Shown: one piece after another, positions 32,771 through 44,581 of the stretch
Layout of the letters: every line of letters starts with the position of its first letter
Position numbering within the stretch: the first letter of the stretch is position 1
NCBI RefSeq assembly: GCF_001528665.1
Contig: NZ_BBYJ01000020.1
Location: forward strand, 62,001 to 126,000
DNA length: 64,000 nt
Source of the DNA: Microtetraspora malaysiensis
Lineage (GTDB): Bacteria; Actinomycetota; Actinomycetes; Streptosporangiales; Streptosporangiaceae
Direction: 5' to 3'
Notes under the pieces: generated by a model
Told to the model about the DNA's origin: nothing
Seen by the model: the letters and a program-made list of their open reading frames with translations, nothing else
The model's database searches: none
Translations under genes and position numbers: made by a program

Positions 32771-34036
32771 GTGCGACATCGGTTTCCCTGGCCGGTCCTG
32801 CCGGTCTGGCTGATCACGCGCCTGGCGCTCTTCCTCGCCGCGACGCAGGTCATCCCGGTCGGGCACGAGGGGTCGTTCGAGGGTGACGTCACGCTGTACG
32901 GCAACTGGTCGCGGATCCTGCTCGGCGGTGAGTTCCCCGCCGGGGACGAGAAGTGGCAGTACCCGCCCTACGCGGCGCTGCCCCTGCTCGCGCCGCACCT
33001 GCTGCCGTGGAGCTACCGGATCGACTTCTACGTGCTCGCGCTGGGGTGCGACCTGGCGATCCTGCTGCTGCTGTGCCGGTTCACCGTCAAGACCGGCGGC
33101 AGCCGTACCGGCGTGTGGGCGTGGACGATCGGCGCGGCCCTGCTCGGGCCGCTACTGATCTCCCGGTACGACCTGATGGTGACCCTGGTCGCGGTCCTCG
33201 CGCTCACGCTCTCGACGAACCCGGCGGTGCGGGGAGCGCTGATCGGGTTCGGTCTGGCGATCAAGGTGTGGCCGGTCGCGCTGCTCGCCGGGCTGCGCCG
33301 CTGGCGCGAGCTGCTGACCGGCGGCGCCTCGGCCCTGGTCGTCGTGGTGCTCGGCTGCGGCGTGGCCACCCTGGTCCTGCCGCACGCGCTCGACTTCCTC
33401 ACCGCCCAGCAGGACCGGGGGCTGCAGATCGAGTCGCTCGCGGCCACGCCGTTCGCGCTCGCCCGCGCGCTCGGGTGGTGGGGCGGGTTCACCACGTACC
33501 AGCACGGCGCGATGGAGCTCGTCGGGCCCGGCGTGGAGGCGGCCACCCTGGTGAGCGTCGCCGCGACGCCGGTCGCGCTCGTCCTGCTCGCGGTCTGGTG
33601 GTTCCGCGCCGCGCCGACCGAGAAGACCTACTATGACGCGGCGCTGACCACGGTCCTGTTCCTGGTGGTGACCAGCCGGGTGCTGTCGCCGCAGTACCTG
33701 ATCTGGATCCTCGGCGTCACGGCCGTGGTGTTCGCCGCGCGGACCCGGCAGCGGCCCGCCGCCTGGCTCATCCTCGTCGCGACCCTGCTGACCGGGATCA
33801 TGTACCCCTGGGTGGAGGAGGACTACAGCTGGAGCGGCCGGCTGCCCGGCACGCTGATCCTGGTCGCGCGCAACCTCGTCTTCCTCGCGGCGGCCGTCGT
33901 GTCGTTCGTCCAGCTTTGGCGGAGCACCCGCAGGCCGGGCCGGGGCCGGCGCGACGAACTCGCCGCGGTCGGCGAGGACCTGGGCGTTTCCCGGGACGGC
34001 ATGGCCGCGCGCGGTCCCGGGATCCGAACGGCGTAG
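32771..34036 (+). CDS. GT87-like polytopic membrane glycosyltransferase (DUF2029)
   Basis: A 421-residue paralogue of the preceding gene, beginning at a GTG 4 bp after its stop. GDVTLYGNWSRILLGGEFPA and EKWQYPPYAALPLLAP near the N-terminus and SRVLSPQYLIWILG near residue 300 correspond to the upstream protein's loops. About 10 transmembrane helices. Likely function is transfer of a sugar from a polyprenyl-phosphate donor; the acceptor is unknown. Confidence 0.83.
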   Translation: MRHRFPWPVLPVWLITRLALFLAATQVIPVGHEGSFEGDVTLYGNWSRILLGGEFPAGDEKWQYPPYAALPLLAPHLLPWSYRIDFYVLALGCDLAILLLLCRFTVKTGGSRTGVWAWTIGAALLGPLLISRYDLMVTLVAVLALTLSTNPAVRGALIGFGLAIKVWPVALLAGLRRWRELLTGGASALVVVVLGCGVATLVLPHALDFLTAQQDRGLQIESLAATPFALARALGWWGGFTTYQHGAMELVGPGVEAATLVSVAATPVALVLLAVWWFRAAPTEKTYYDAALTTVLFLVVTSRVLSPQYLIWILGVTAVVFAARTRQRPAAWLILVATLLTGIMYPWVEEDYSWSGRLPGTLILVARNLVFLAAAVVSFVQLWRSTRRPGRGRRDELAAVGEDLGVSRDGMAARGPGIRTA

Positions 34037-34074: not shown

Positions 34075-34095
34075 TTATCCACAGGCTGTGGATCC
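34075..34095. promoter_or_regulatory. DnaA box within a short dyad
   Basis: TTATCCACA (34075-34083) matches the DnaA box exactly; the following GGC then TGTGGAT forms a perfect 7-bp inverted repeat (ATCCACA/TGTGGAT). It lies in the 69-bp convergent gap before the endonuclease IV stop, so it is not near a promoter. Confidence 0.55.
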
Positions 34096-40292: not shown

Positions 40293-41615
40293 TCACGCCC
40301 CCGTGACCAGCCAGGCCGTGCCGTACGCGCGGAAGGAGAGCGTGAGCATCCGGGCCAGCATCCACACGCCGAAGGCCGCCCACAGCGCGACGAGGCTCCC
40401 CGCGACCAAGGCGAACGGCAGGTACGCGAGCGTGGTGACCAACCCGGCCCAGGCGAGGTAACGCCGGTCGCCCGCGCCGATCAGCACGCCGTCGAGCACG
40501 AACACGACACCCGCCACCGGCTGGAACAGCGCCACCAGCCACAGCACCTCGTCCAGCCGCTCGGACACCGCGCCGGGAGTGTCGAACACCGCCGGGATCA
40601 GCGGGCGGAGCGCGAGAACGGCCAGGCCGAAGACGACGCCGCACCCCACCCCCCACGCGACCATGCGGCGGGTGGCCGACCGGGTCGCGGCCGTGTCGCC
40701 CGCGCCCAGGGTCCGGCCGGTGATCGCCTGCCCCGCGATGGCGATGGCGTCCAGGGCGAACGCGAGGAACGTCCAGATCCGCGTCGCGATGGTGTGCGCG
40801 GAGATCTGCGCGTCGCCCATCCGGGTCGCCAACGACGTGGCGGTCAGCAGCACCACCTGCAGGCACGCCGTACGGATGACCAGGGCCAGACCGGCGGTGC
40901 CGGCGGCCCGGATTCCGGCGAGGTCGGGCCGGAGCGGGGCGCCGTGCCGCCGGGCGCCCCTGATCACCATGACGAGGTAGACGGCCGCGCCGAGCGCCTG
41001 GGCGATGACCGTGCCCCAGGCCGACCCGGCGACGCCCCAGCCGAGCCCGAGGACGAACCAGGCGTTCAGCACGCCGTTCAGCAGGAAGGAGCCCACCGAG
41101 ACCGCGAGAGGCGTCACCGTGTCCTGGAGGCCGCGCAGCACGCCCGTGCCCGCGAGCACGAGAAGCAGCGCGGGCGTGCCGAGCAGGCTGACCCGCAGAT
41201 AGGTGGTCGCCAGCTCGGCCAGCCGGTCGGAGGCGCCGAAGAGGTCGACGATGCCCGGGGCGAGCGGCCAGCAGACGGCGATGACGGCGACGCCCACCGC
41301 CGCGGCCAGCCACATGCCGTCCACACCCTGCCGCATCGCCCGGCGCGCCTCGCCCGCGCCCATCTGCCGCGCCACCGCCGCGGTCGTGCCGTACGCGAGG
41401 AAGACGCACAGGCCGACGATCGCGGAGAGGGCGGCGCTCGCCACGCCGAGAGCGCCGAGGGCCGGATCGGGCAGCCGTCCGACGATGACGGAGTCGGTCA
41501 GCAGGAACAACGGCTCGGCGACCAGGGCCCCGAACGCGGGGACGGCGAGCCGGAGGATCTCCCGGTGCCCGGCGCCGGAGGCTCCCCGCCGATCGGCGTC
41601 CCTTGTCAGTGGCAT
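40293..41615 (-). CDS. MATE family efflux transporter
   Basis: About 440 residues, 12 transmembrane helices. AVPAFGALVAEPLFLLTDSV and IVGRLPDPALGALGVASA are the MATE N-terminal blocks, with a second repeat around ATSLATRMGDAQISAHTIAT. Probably cation-coupled drug/metabolite export. ATG 41615 is preferred; the frame is open to 41774 but that extension overlaps a DnaA-box region and lacks homology. Confidence 0.9.
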   Translation of the reverse strand: MPLTRDADRRGASGAGHREILRLAVPAFGALVAEPLFLLTDSVIVGRLPDPALGALGVASAALSAIVGLCVFLAYGTTAAVARQMGAGEARRAMRQGVDGMWLAAAVGVAVIAVCWPLAPGIVDLFGASDRLAELATTYLRVSLLGTPALLLVLAGTGVLRGLQDTVTPLAVSVGSFLLNGVLNAWFVLGLGWGVAGSAWGTVIAQALGAAVYLVMVIRGARRHGAPLRPDLAGIRAAGTAGLALVIRTACLQVVLLTATSLATRMGDAQISAHTIATRIWTFLAFALDAIAIAGQAITGRTLGAGDTAATRSATRRMVAWGVGCGVVFGLAVLALRPLIPAVFDTPGAVSERLDEVLWLVALFQPVAGVVFVLDGVLIGAGDRRYLAWAGLVTTLAYLPFALVAGSLVALWAAFGVWMLARMLTLSFRAYGTAWLVTGA

Positions 41616-41941
41616 AAGGGTATTTTGCCAGTTACATATCGATGCTCGGCATTGATACCCGGCGTCGCGGAGCCGCCATGCCGATCCGGTCTCGGCTATC
41701 GTCCGATTTTTCTTCCTCCACAGCCCTTGGATAATGTTTCGGCTGCTCAGCGCGGCTTGAGTGGCGTTGGCCACAGGGTTATCCCCAGGCTCGTCCCCAG
41801 GGTGTTCACACCTGAGCGGCCGAAGTGCACACGTTATCCACAGGCGGCTCCACAGGTCGCGTTGCCGGTAGGGTGCGGCAGCCGCGAAACTGTCAGACCG
41901 GCGGATTACAACTGGGATTGCTGTGTTGGGGGGTGTCTGCA
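41616..41941. other. Intergenic region between MATE gene and dnaB
   Basis: A 326-bp divergent region with no convincing gene. It contains the DnaA-box-like cluster at 41767-41854 and must hold the promoters of both flanking genes. Confidence 0.6.
41767..41854. promoter_or_regulatory. DnaA-box-like cluster upstream of dnaB
   Basis: TTATCCACA (41834-41842) is an exact DnaA box. TTGGCCACA (41767-41775) and TTATCCCCA (41779-41787) have one mismatch each, with weaker TCGTCCCCA, TGTTCACA and GGCTCCACA nearby. Six box-like elements within 88 bp, all in the same orientation, directly precede dnaB. Confidence 0.6.
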
Positions 41942-44581
41942 GTGAGCGTGCTTGATTTCCCGGGCGGGCCGGGGGGTTCCGGGGGCTCCGGAGGTCCCGG
42001 TGGCCCGGGGGGCTCCGACGTCGCCTTCGAGCGGACCCCGCCGCACAATATCGAGGCCGAGCAGTCCGTTCTCGGCGGCATGATGCTGTCGAAGGACGCG
42101 ATCGCCGACGTGGTCGAGGTGCTGCGCGGCGACGACTTCTACCGCCCCGCGCACCAGATCATCTACGACGTCATCACCGACCTCTACGGCCGGGGCGAGC
42201 CCGCCGACTCGATCATGATCCTGGACGATCTGCAGAAGCGCGGCGAGCTGGGCCGGGTCGGCGGCGCTCCCTACCTCCATACGCTGACCGCGGTCGTGCC
42301 CACCGCGGCCAACGCGGGTTACTACGCCAAGATCGTGCGGGAGCAGGCCGTCCTGCGCCGGCTGATCGAGGCCGGCACGCGCATCGTCTCCTACGGGTAC
42401 GGCGGCCAGGGCGAGGAGGTCGACGACCTGGTCGACCGCGCGCAGGGCGAGATCTACAAGGTGACCGAGCGGCGTACCTCCGAGGACTACCTGCCGCTGT
42501 CGGAGATCATGCCGGGCGCGCTGGACGAGATCGAGGCCATCGGCAGCCGCCACGGCCAGATGGTCGGCGTCCCCACCGGCTTCCAGGACCTCGACGCCCT
42601 CACCAACGGCCTGCACCCCGGCCAGATGATCGTTGTGGCCGCCCGACCCGCCATCGGTAAGGCGCTCGCGCTCGATACCCCGCTGCCCACTCCTGATGGC
42701 TGGACAACCATGGGTGAGGTGAAGGTCGGCGACTACCTGATCGGGGCCGACGGTAAGCCCACTCGCGTGGTGGCTGCTACCGACATCATGCACGGCCGCC
42801 CGTGCTACGAGGTGGAGTTCAGCGATGGCACGGTGATCACGGCCGACGCCCAGCACCAATGGCTCACCGACACACGTGCGTCCCGCAAATCGGCTCAGGC
42901 GGCTGCGTCCGACTACAACAGGTACCGGAACCAGAAGACATTCGCTGATGTGCGCACAACGGAAGAGATCGCCGCAACGCTGTGGTGCAACACCGCGGAC
43001 AAGCGGCTCAATCACACCGTCGTCAATGCCCGGCCGCTGGACCTGCCCGACCGTGACCTGCTGATCCCTCCGTACGCACTGGGTGTCTGGCTCGGAGACG
43101 GCCACTCTGACAGTGCCCGGTTCACCACCGGGGACCCGGAGATCGCCGAGCATGTGGCCGCCGACGGTCTTCGGGTGGAGCACCGCGGCGGGCTGCTGTA
43201 CGCAATGCTGCTGCCCGAGCCGGAGTCGATCGCCGAACGGCCGTGCATTGTGTGCGGAAAGCCGTTCACACCCCAAACAGCGCAGGTACGCACCTGCGGC
43301 AGGGTATGCGGCTGCCGGTCGAGGAGTTCCGAACACGGCCCCTCGCAGTCGCCCAGGTGCCCCGACTGCGGCGGCCCGTCCAGTGGGCTTCGCCAGTGCC
43401 AGGAGTGCCGCAACGACCACGGCACTATGAACGCCCGACTGAGGAAGCTGGGCGTGCTGGGCAACAAGCACATCCCGAGCGAATATCTGCGCGCTTCTGA
43501 GGCGCAGCGCAGAGCGCTCCTGGCCGGGCTGCTGGACACCGACGGCTATATCAACGCCGCCGGGACAGCCCAGTTCGCCGTCACGAACCGTCGCCTGGCA
43601 GAGGACACCTGGGAACTGATCCTGAGCCTGGGATACAAAGCAACCTGGACATCCAAGGAGGTGTCAGGGCGCACCGAAGCCAGCTCAACCAGCTATGCGA
43701 TCACATTCACCCCCTCCGACAAGGTCTTCCGGCTGAGCCGGAAGAACGCCCGCGTGAACACCAACACCCACCCCAAGGCGACGTACCGCACCATCACCGA
43801 CGTCCGCCCGGTGACGTCGGTGCCAGTGCGTTGCGTCGAGGTGGACAACACCGATCACATGTACCTGGCGGGGCAGACATGGATACCCACCCACAACTCC
43901 ACCCTTGGATTGGATTTCGCCAGATCTGCCGCTATCAAGCACGGCATGACGACTGTCGTCTTCTCGCTGGAAATGTCGCGTAATGAGATCACGATGCGAC
44001 TGCTTTCGGCGGAGGCGAGGGTCGCGCTGCACACCATGCGCTCGGGGACGATGAGCGACGACGACTGGACCCGCATGGCCCGCCGCATGGGCGAGGTCGC
44101 CGAGGCGCCGCTGTTCATCGACGACTCCCCGAACATGTCGATGATGGAGATCCGGGCCAAGTGCCGCCGTCTCAAGCAGCGCAACGACCTGCGGTTCGTC
44201 ATCGTCGACTACCTCCAGCTGATGAGCTCTCCCAAGCGGACCGAGAGCCGCCAGCAGGAGGTCTCCGAGCTGTCCCGGTCGCTCAAGCTCCTCGCGAAGG
44301 AGCTGGAGGTGCCCGTCATCGCGATCTCGCAGCTCAACCGTGGTCCTGAGCAACGCACCGACAAGCGTCCCCAGGTGTCCGACCTGAGAGAGTCTGGGTC
44401 GATTGAGCAGGATGCCGACATGGTGATCCTCTTGCATCGAGAGGACGCCTACGAGCGGGAGTCGCCGCGGGCGGGCGAGGCCGACCTGATCGTGGCCAAG
44501 CACCGTAACGGCCCCACCGCCACCGTCACGGTGGCGTTCCAGGGCCACTACAGCCGCTTCGTGGACATGGCCACGCACTGA
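41942..44581 (+). CDS. dnaB: Replicative DNA helicase DnaB, interrupted by an intein
   Basis: An 879-residue precursor; the exteins total 467 residues, the normal DnaB length. The N-extein (1-240) has PHNIEAEQSVLGGMMLSKDA and ends with the P-loop VAARPAIGK; the C-extein (653-879) resumes STLGLDFARSAAIKHG, so the intein splits Walker A between Lys and Ser. Further helicase motifs: VVFSLEMSRNEITMR, FVIVDYLQLMSS (Walker B) and VIAISQLNRGPEQR. It must be spliced to be functional. GTG 41942 follows a G-rich RBS; a longer frame from 41825 is less likely. Confidence 0.95.
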   Translation: MSVLDFPGGPGGSGGSGGPGGPGGSDVAFERTPPHNIEAEQSVLGGMMLSKDAIADVVEVLRGDDFYRPAHQIIYDVITDLYGRGEPADSIMILDDLQKRGELGRVGGAPYLHTLTAVVPTAANAGYYAKIVREQAVLRRLIEAGTRIVSYGYGGQGEEVDDLVDRAQGEIYKVTERRTSEDYLPLSEIMPGALDEIEAIGSRHGQMVGVPTGFQDLDALTNGLHPGQMIVVAARPAIGKALALDTPLPTPDGWTTMGEVKVGDYLIGADGKPTRVVAATDIMHGRPCYEVEFSDGTVITADAQHQWLTDTRASRKSAQAAASDYNRYRNQKTFADVRTTEEIAATLWCNTADKRLNHTVVNARPLDLPDRDLLIPPYALGVWLGDGHSDSARFTTGDPEIAEHVAADGLRVEHRGGLLYAMLLPEPESIAERPCIVCGKPFTPQTAQVRTCGRVCGCRSRSSEHGPSQSPRCPDCGGPSSGLRQCQECRNDHGTMNARLRKLGVLGNKHIPSEYLRASEAQRRALLAGLLDTDGYINAAGTAQFAVTNRRLAEDTWELILSLGYKATWTSKEVSGRTEASSTSYAITFTPSDKVFRLSRKNARVNTNTHPKATYRTITDVRPVTSVPVRCVEVDNTDHMYLAGQTWIPTHNSTLGLDFARSAAIKHGMTTVVFSLEMSRNEITMRLLSAEARVALHTMRSGTMSDDDWTRMARRMGEVAEAPLFIDDSPNMSMMEIRAKCRRLKQRNDLRFVIVDYLQLMSSPKRTESRQQEVSELSRSLKLLAKELEVPVIAISQLNRGPEQRTDKRPQVSDLRESGSIEQDADMVILLHREDAYERESPRAGEADLIVAKHRNGPTATVTVAFQGHYSRFVDMATH
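42662..43897 (+). mobile_element. DnaB intein (412 aa), class 3 type with LAGLIDADG endonuclease
   Basis: The intein is residues 241-652 of the precursor. It begins with Ala (ALALDTPLPTPDGW), not Cys/Ser. Block B GTVITADAQHQWLTD carries His and Trp; block F SVPVRCVEVDNTDHMYLAG carries Cys; block G WIPTHN has Thr-His-Asn, followed by Ser+1. Trp(B12)/Cys(F4)/Thr(G5) is the class 3 signature, in which the block F Cys starts splicing. LAGLIDADG motifs are LGVWLGDGH (residue ~380) and LLAGLLDTDGYI (~525). The codons look AT-richer than in the exteins. A nine-Cys insert lies between the two motifs. Confidence 0.92.

Follow-up and report, generated by a model that had tools for sequence, protein, structure and literature searches.

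A conserved, helically phased row of DnaA-box-like sites upstream of the helicase gene dnaB in Actinomycetes and its likely part in dnaB control

The stretch of DNA analysed here (64,000 nucleotides, referred to as the window) carries a row of DnaA-box-like sites directly in front of dnaB, the gene of the replicative helicase, which raises the question of what the initiator DnaA may do at a place that lies ~43 kb from oriC. A preliminary description of the sequence had offered three answers, namely that the sites couple dnaB expression to DnaA, that they titrate DnaA, or that they form a secondary assembly site. By sequence likeness the source genome is near Microtetraspora, and the closest dnaB among the matches listed (best 80 of 584) has been found in M. 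fusca (100% over the N-terminal query residues 2-211). The intergenic region between dnaB and a MATE-family transporter gene measures 326 bp (41616-41941) and carries the whole array, the end of which lies 87 bp upstream of the GTG start of dnaB (Table 1), while oriC itself (dnaA-dnaN side) is located just outside the window start. Inside DnaB, an intein (42600-43900) sits by eye after the GK of the Walker A motif, with an apparent Ala and not Cys as its first residue (by eye), and long open frames at many of the relatives' dnaB genes suggest inteins there as well.

Table 1. Features of the dnaB control region and related box sites (window positions, unless a locus is named)
Feature	Position	Strand	Remark
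MATE-family transporter gene	40293..41615	-	divergent from dnaB, common intergenic region
Weak inverted DnaA-box-like pair	41714..41734		TCCTCCACA on + (41714), TTATCCAAG on - (41726); upstream of array
Weak DnaA box TTGGCCACA	41767..41775	+	
32-bp oriC-like segment	41774..41805	+	28/32 bases as in own oriC (L142 10685-10716); spans two boxes 12 bp apart
DnaA box TTATCCCCA	41779..41787	+	one mismatch to TTATCCACA
Weak DnaA box TCGTCCCCA	41791..41799	+	same 9-mer present in oriC
Weak DnaA box GTGTTCACA	41802..41810	+	
Exact DnaA box TTATCCACA	41834..41842	+	
Very weak box GGCTCCACA	41846..41854	+	6/9 matches
TTGC	41862..41865	+	invariant in 15-sequence alignment
Predicted dnaB promoter element TGTCAG-N10-TACAAC	41891..41912	+	from alignments; without final T of TA-N3-T
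dnaB, replicative helicase	41942..44581	+	GTG start 41942; TIGR00665
Three non-oriC box peaks, far side of oriC	L142:5761, 7144, 7994 (G000:C20:55761, 57144, 57994)		scores 5.0, 4.5, 4.5

Composition and density of the box array

The array consists of six DnaA-box-like 9-mers between 41767 and 41854, all on the + strand; reading and scoring have confirmed the count of the preliminary description, one exact box and five near-matches in 88 bp on one strand before dnaB. Compared with TTATCCACA, one box is exact, one has a single mismatch (41779) and four are weaker. In an alignment of 15 sequences (the window plus the 15 closest named loci with the exception of L008), the columns of the GGCTCCACA box hold TTGTCCACA or TTATCCACA in several relatives, and the inverted pair at 41714-41734 aligns in relatives to the consensus TTTCTTTCCTCCACAGCCGGTGGACA. 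Relative to the wider consensus TT[A/G]TCCACA, the five inexact boxes carry 1, 1, 2, 2, and 3 mismatches, which might be taken to mean that near-matches have accumulated by chance and without function. At the sequence level this explanation is rejected by shuffles, conservation and phasing, and we regard it as barely conceivable. Box clusters were scored over 120 bp with 3, 1.5, and 0.4 for 9, 8, and 7 matches to TT[A/G]TCCACA, respectively. The best score within 41616-41941 is 7.2, a value that 5000 dinucleotide shuffles of this intergenic sequence never reach (maximum 4.2). Likewise, TTATCCACA with at most one mismatch has nine occurrences in the window where 1.8 would be expected (0/100 shuffles reach nine), two of the nine being located in the dnaB cluster and three in the rpmH-dnaA gap. 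The dnaB cluster has the highest score in the window, followed by the rpmH-dnaA gap (4.9, genes assigned by eye) and by positions 34015 (4.2) and 11150 (3.4), and a survey of 340 kb from elsewhere in this genome (17 stretches of 20 kb each) has yielded a single peak of at least 4, with a score of 6.0; four of these stretches include places from a genome-wide box search, which can only raise the background. Whether such a density is unusual, a point raised in the preliminary description, is hence answered in the affirmative by the shuffles as well as by the 340 kb of own genome.

The dnaB cluster is not unique, as the 14 kb ahead of the window, on the oriC side, hold five more peaks of at least 4.5 besides the rpmH-dnaA gap, two of them at oriC (7.2 and 6.1) and three elsewhere (Table 1). 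Genome-wide, 52 sites (36 forward, 16 reverse) match TTATCCACAGG with at most one mismatch vs 23 for a reversed control pattern, and two own-genome stretches picked for genome-wide box matches score 9.8 and 6.0. The strongest cluster among the own-genome stretches scanned (L143:10417-10537, G000:C27:106417-106537; score 9.8) has boxes in both orientations and is a candidate titration site; it is situated within a convergent gap, or at its border, flanked by a sigma-factor-like and an amino-acid-permease-like ORF (by eye). A further cluster (L144:10580-10820, G000:C17; scores 6.0 and 4.5) lies between pilus/secretion-like ORFs (by eye). Within the window, a palindromic DnaA-box pair, TTATCCACAGGCTGTGGATCC, has been noticed at 34075-34095 in the convergent gap beside the deoxyribonuclease IV gene and resembles the palindromic DnaA site of M. 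tuberculosis Rv0010c-Rv0011c, while the DnaA-box-like sites of the rpmH-dnaA gap (442-574) constitute the expected DnaA autoregulation region.

Conservation, phasing and orientation upstream of dnaB

Conservation of the array has been followed in 171 loci of the window's class, 170 of which are distinct (L131 equals L001, with identical upstream sequence). The first 141 comprise the window, the best 80 of 584 named loci (L001-L080) and 60 more genomes (L081-L140), of which 50 represent 30 families of the class other than the window's and 10 the window's own; the sampling covered 30 of ~118 families, with one to three genomes chosen per family. Another 10 + 20 loci have been added, 18 of the 20 from the window's family. 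The set is phylogenetically uneven, and since only the best 80 of 584 are included, its named part leans to close relatives and Streptomyces, the latter being present in large number. A score of at least 3 upstream of dnaB has been obtained for 162/170 distinct loci, the eight with lower scores being L019, L021, L081, L092, L099, L117, L126, and L192, so that the conservation in relatives, likewise left to be checked by the preliminary description, is evident. The other-family draw alone (50 loci, 30 families) yields 45/50, and outside the class, yet within the same phylum, 7/29 dnaB loci qualify. Moreover, the densest box window of the locus (3.2-6.8 kb scanned) lies just upstream of dnaB at 167 of the 170 distinct class loci. 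With the duplicate counted, this holds for 138 of the first 141 (exceptions L092, L093, and L098) and for all of the loci added afterwards.

The common intergenic region would also permit a role of the array at the divergent MATE gene, or a repression of dnaB by DnaA, which is known as activator or repressor according to the available account (PMC8203912). The cluster qualifies, however, in 118/121 loci with a MATE homologue at most 3 kb upstream and still in 43/48 loci where none was found nearby (duplicate counted), and therefore the array goes with dnaB. It also does not overlap with the predicted promoter element described below, and we consider both variants quite improbable.

A pronounced periodicity has been observed for the box positions. 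In 50 genomes (L081-L130), the spacing of boxes on the + strand is mainly 11-12, 21-23, 32-34, 43-45, 53-57, and 64-67 bp, and the best period of 10.9 bp has a strength of 0.78, a value compared with 1000 random placements that keep the box counts and spans of the real loci (50 genomes, 30 other families) and do not exceed 0.26. The steps in the window are 12, 12, 11, 32, and 12 bp. Strong boxes (8 or 9 of 9) predominantly point to dnaB, namely 497 of 625 over the 170 distinct loci. For E. coli oriC, the arrangement of the strong and the weak boxes is described to guide a specific DnaA oligomer, and elsewhere a common box orientation may indicate ordered DnaA binding, as far as the review covers these cases (PMC4285127); by analogy, we infer that such ordered binding and oligomer guidance may apply to the dnaB array.

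The 32-bp segment of the array that matches own oriC in 28/32 positions, where 170 control stretches without chosen boxes do not exceed 22, and a 40-bp stretch at 41603 that is as AT-rich (60%) as any 40-mer of the scanned oriC stretch, could both point to a secondary replication start or a helicase-loading site. But the rpmH-dnaA gap nearly equals this likeness (26/32; seven other box-bearing own-genome stretches reach 20-23, either strand), and as other box stretches come up to 26/32, the resemblance to oriC partly reflects what is common to boxes at such spacing. The AT-rich stretch, for its part, includes the start codon of the MATE gene and is ~125 bp away from the array (a second 40-mer, 41700 with 55% AT, overlaps the inverted pair), and next to dnaA the genome has its usual oriC region. 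Beyond the 32-mer and the AT-rich stretch, no positive evidence has been found for the secondary assembly site of the preliminary description, and we consider an origin-like role extremely improbable.

The titration of DnaA deserves closer inspection. In this case the array would act as a reservoir near oriC, taking up free DnaA soon after the origin has been copied and delaying re-initiation, and its place upstream of dnaB would be secondary. The frequent box peaks on the oriC side are in line with such a role, as is the dnaA-dnaB distance of 24-144 kb in 30/30 genomes of one or two contigs. In the outgroup, a cluster (score at least 3) has been found in 5/9 genomes with dnaB at most 54 kb from dnaA and in 0/5 at 79 kb or more, a small count that was made by hand for dnaA and dnaB on one contig, is confounded by kinship and has no distance for G318. 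Streptomyces coelicolor likewise possesses DnaA-box clusters near oriC, H24, H69, and D78, of which D78 acts in replication control by titration; H24 may be the dnaB site, judged by the cosmid name. A pure reservoir, on the other hand, need not precede the same gene in nearly all genomes of the class, nor point mostly to dnaB, nor adjoin a conserved promoter-like element. Other strong clusters of the own genome lie in convergent gaps, which indicates that a reservoir needs no promoter, and outgroup G307 (L190) has a cluster (3.4) with dnaB on a contig that lacks dnaA and whose nearer end is ~114 kb away from dnaB. Among the class genomes, none with dnaB far from oriC has been found, all 30 distances being within 144 kb, and the comparison of gene linkage with origin linkage consequently does not decide. 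The neighbourhood of the origin thus stands from the titration proposal of the preliminary description, whereas the recurrent place before dnaB speaks against it, and we hold titration as the main function to be unlikely. Coupling of dnaB to DnaA is the best supported of the three initial readings, since the array stays with dnaB and since, in the part of the literature considered, mycobacterial reports point the same way (PMC7738170). With a probability of about two thirds (0.68), the cluster is a DnaA-binding array of the dnaB control region that tunes, and most likely raises, dnaB transcription. As the row of likely DnaA sites is kept in nearly all related genomes of the set examined, these actinomycetes probably tie the production of their helicase to the state of DnaA.

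A predicted PafBC-like promoter element between array and gene

A classical sigma-70 promoter has not been found in 41560-42000, and TAGGGT at 41869, picked by eye as a candidate -10 element, has been dropped because it is not conserved in relatives. The alignments reveal a second conserved block between array and dnaB, TGTC[A/G]G-N10-TA, which is present in the window (41891-41908) at the spacing of the mycobacterial PafBC motif, given as TGTCGG (or TGTCAG, TGTCAC)-N10-TA-N3-T in the account used here (PMC8151990). Scanning a 330-bp region upstream of and at the conserved DnaB domain in three locus sets has returned the block in 15/26, 52/65, and 18/50 loci vs 1.7, 0.4, and 0.8% of equal-length background windows. 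Overall it occurs in 85/141 loci, or in 94 of 170 distinct loci and is absent in the other 76. A matrix derived from 60 matches (L001-L080) exceeds the 99th percentile of the background in 21/50 and 19/40 other loci and in 3/29 outgroups, where two of the 50 belong to the Streptomyces-type family, and among the 40 are relatives of the training set and one duplicate of it. The full TA-N3-T form is rare at dnaB (1/26, 3/65, and 3/50 loci, hence 7/141; 10/170 distinct loci), and the window element, ending in TACAAC without the last T, has been rejected as a full PafBC promoter. Given the missing T and the rarity of the full form, the element is termed PafBC-like, not a member of the PafBC group.

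Two neighbouring genes of the genome encode WYL/WCX proteins. The second of them has the helix-turn-helix domain of PafC, and the first is termed PafB on account of its position and domains; NCBIfam names neither gene. The region upstream of recA carries TGTCGG-N10-TAGCTT. Exact copies of TGTCGG-N10-TAGAAC have been seen at two further places of the genome (G000:C10:204575 and G000:C4:426542) as possible PafBC-type promoters. In M. tuberculosis, dnaB has been reported to be overexpressed after mitomycin with recA deleted and pafBC tuned down, and its mitomycin induction is described as depending on PafBC only in part, a putative SOS box being present (PMC8151990). For S. venezuelae, an initial search has suggested a lack of conservation of the PafBC motif known from M. 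smegmatis, as far as the available text conveys (PMC9380542); Streptomyces dnaB regions with sequences like TTGTCAGTGCCGTGCCGTAGAA suggest that the question of the PafBC motif merits a second look there. Between the last strong box and the promoter element, the distance varies from 4 to 207 bp (median 107, 95 loci). A fixed distance, in which DnaA would touch RNA polymerase at one position, has accordingly been rejected, and a single contact geometry is not supported.

Proposed control of dnaB and relation to known systems

DnaA control of dnaB, the reading preferred here, may be pictured as follows. DnaA would bind the exact box and then spread head-to-tail, presumably in a cooperative manner, onto the weaker boxes, which would share one face of the helix. 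Placed upstream of the PafBC-like promoter, this complex would adjust, and most likely raise, transcription of dnaB from a putative start near 41919, activation being the assumed sign of the DnaA effect. With the dnaB promoter adjusted in this way, the supply of helicase would follow the state of the initiator, and the damage-type promoter could add output after DNA damage. The picture presupposes that PafBC is used at dnaB here and that the host follows a DnaA control of the mycobacterial type. In a wider form, the dnaB promoter of Actinomycetes might be a two-input element, in which a phased, head-to-tail and oriC-like DnaA array, responding to the same state of the initiator as oriC does, is combined with a PafBC-like promoter reading single-stranded DNA damage, so that helicase supply would be set by initiation and fork damage, Streptomyces included; we advance this generalisation tentatively and do not expect it to hold with even odds.

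Action of DnaA at dnaB is already published for mycobacteria and Caulobacter. DnaA has been found bound upstream of dnaB (Rv0057 region) in M. tuberculosis and at the homologue in M. smegmatis, and the M. tuberculosis DnaA mutant I282T, in the account at hand, shows less binding upstream of dnaB together with under-expression of the gene (PMC7738170). Lower and not higher dnaB expression upon reduced DnaA binding argues against repression. Of the DnaA-bound mycobacterial regions named in the accessible part of that report, oriC, rpmH-dnaA, and dnaB have box clusters here. What is added by the present analysis is the class-wide conservation, the helical phasing and the damage-type promoter element at dnaB, none of which we have found described outside mycobacteria in the open-licence literature searched. 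The conserved row offers a testable initiator-helicase link in actinomycetes, antibiotic producers and mycobacteria included. Being helically phased, the dnaB site provides a second natural array besides oriC for studying how actinomycete DnaA assembles, and the promoter-like element gives a starting point in the search for a PafBC-type damage response of Streptomyces.

Among known systems, M. tuberculosis and M. smegmatis, likewise actinomycetes, have DnaA sites ahead of the gene for the replicative helicase. Binding there is experimental, whereas the site described here is known from its sequence; phasing, class-wide conservation and a PafBC-type element do not figure in the accessible description of the mycobacterial site (PMC7738170). 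Mycobacterial PafBC promoters have the TGTC[A/G]G-N10-TA spacing in common with the dnaB element but differ, by the motif as cited, in the last T of TA-N3-T, which is absent in the window and in most loci (PMC8151990). In Caulobacter crescentus, a member of a different phylum, dnaB is listed in the DnaA regulon with predicted boxes upstream, as here, and with a DnaA-dependent transcript (Hottes 2005, as summarised in PMC8203912). The DnaA-box clusters of Streptomyces coelicolor named above, finally, are like the dnaB cluster in lying near oriC of an actinomycete.
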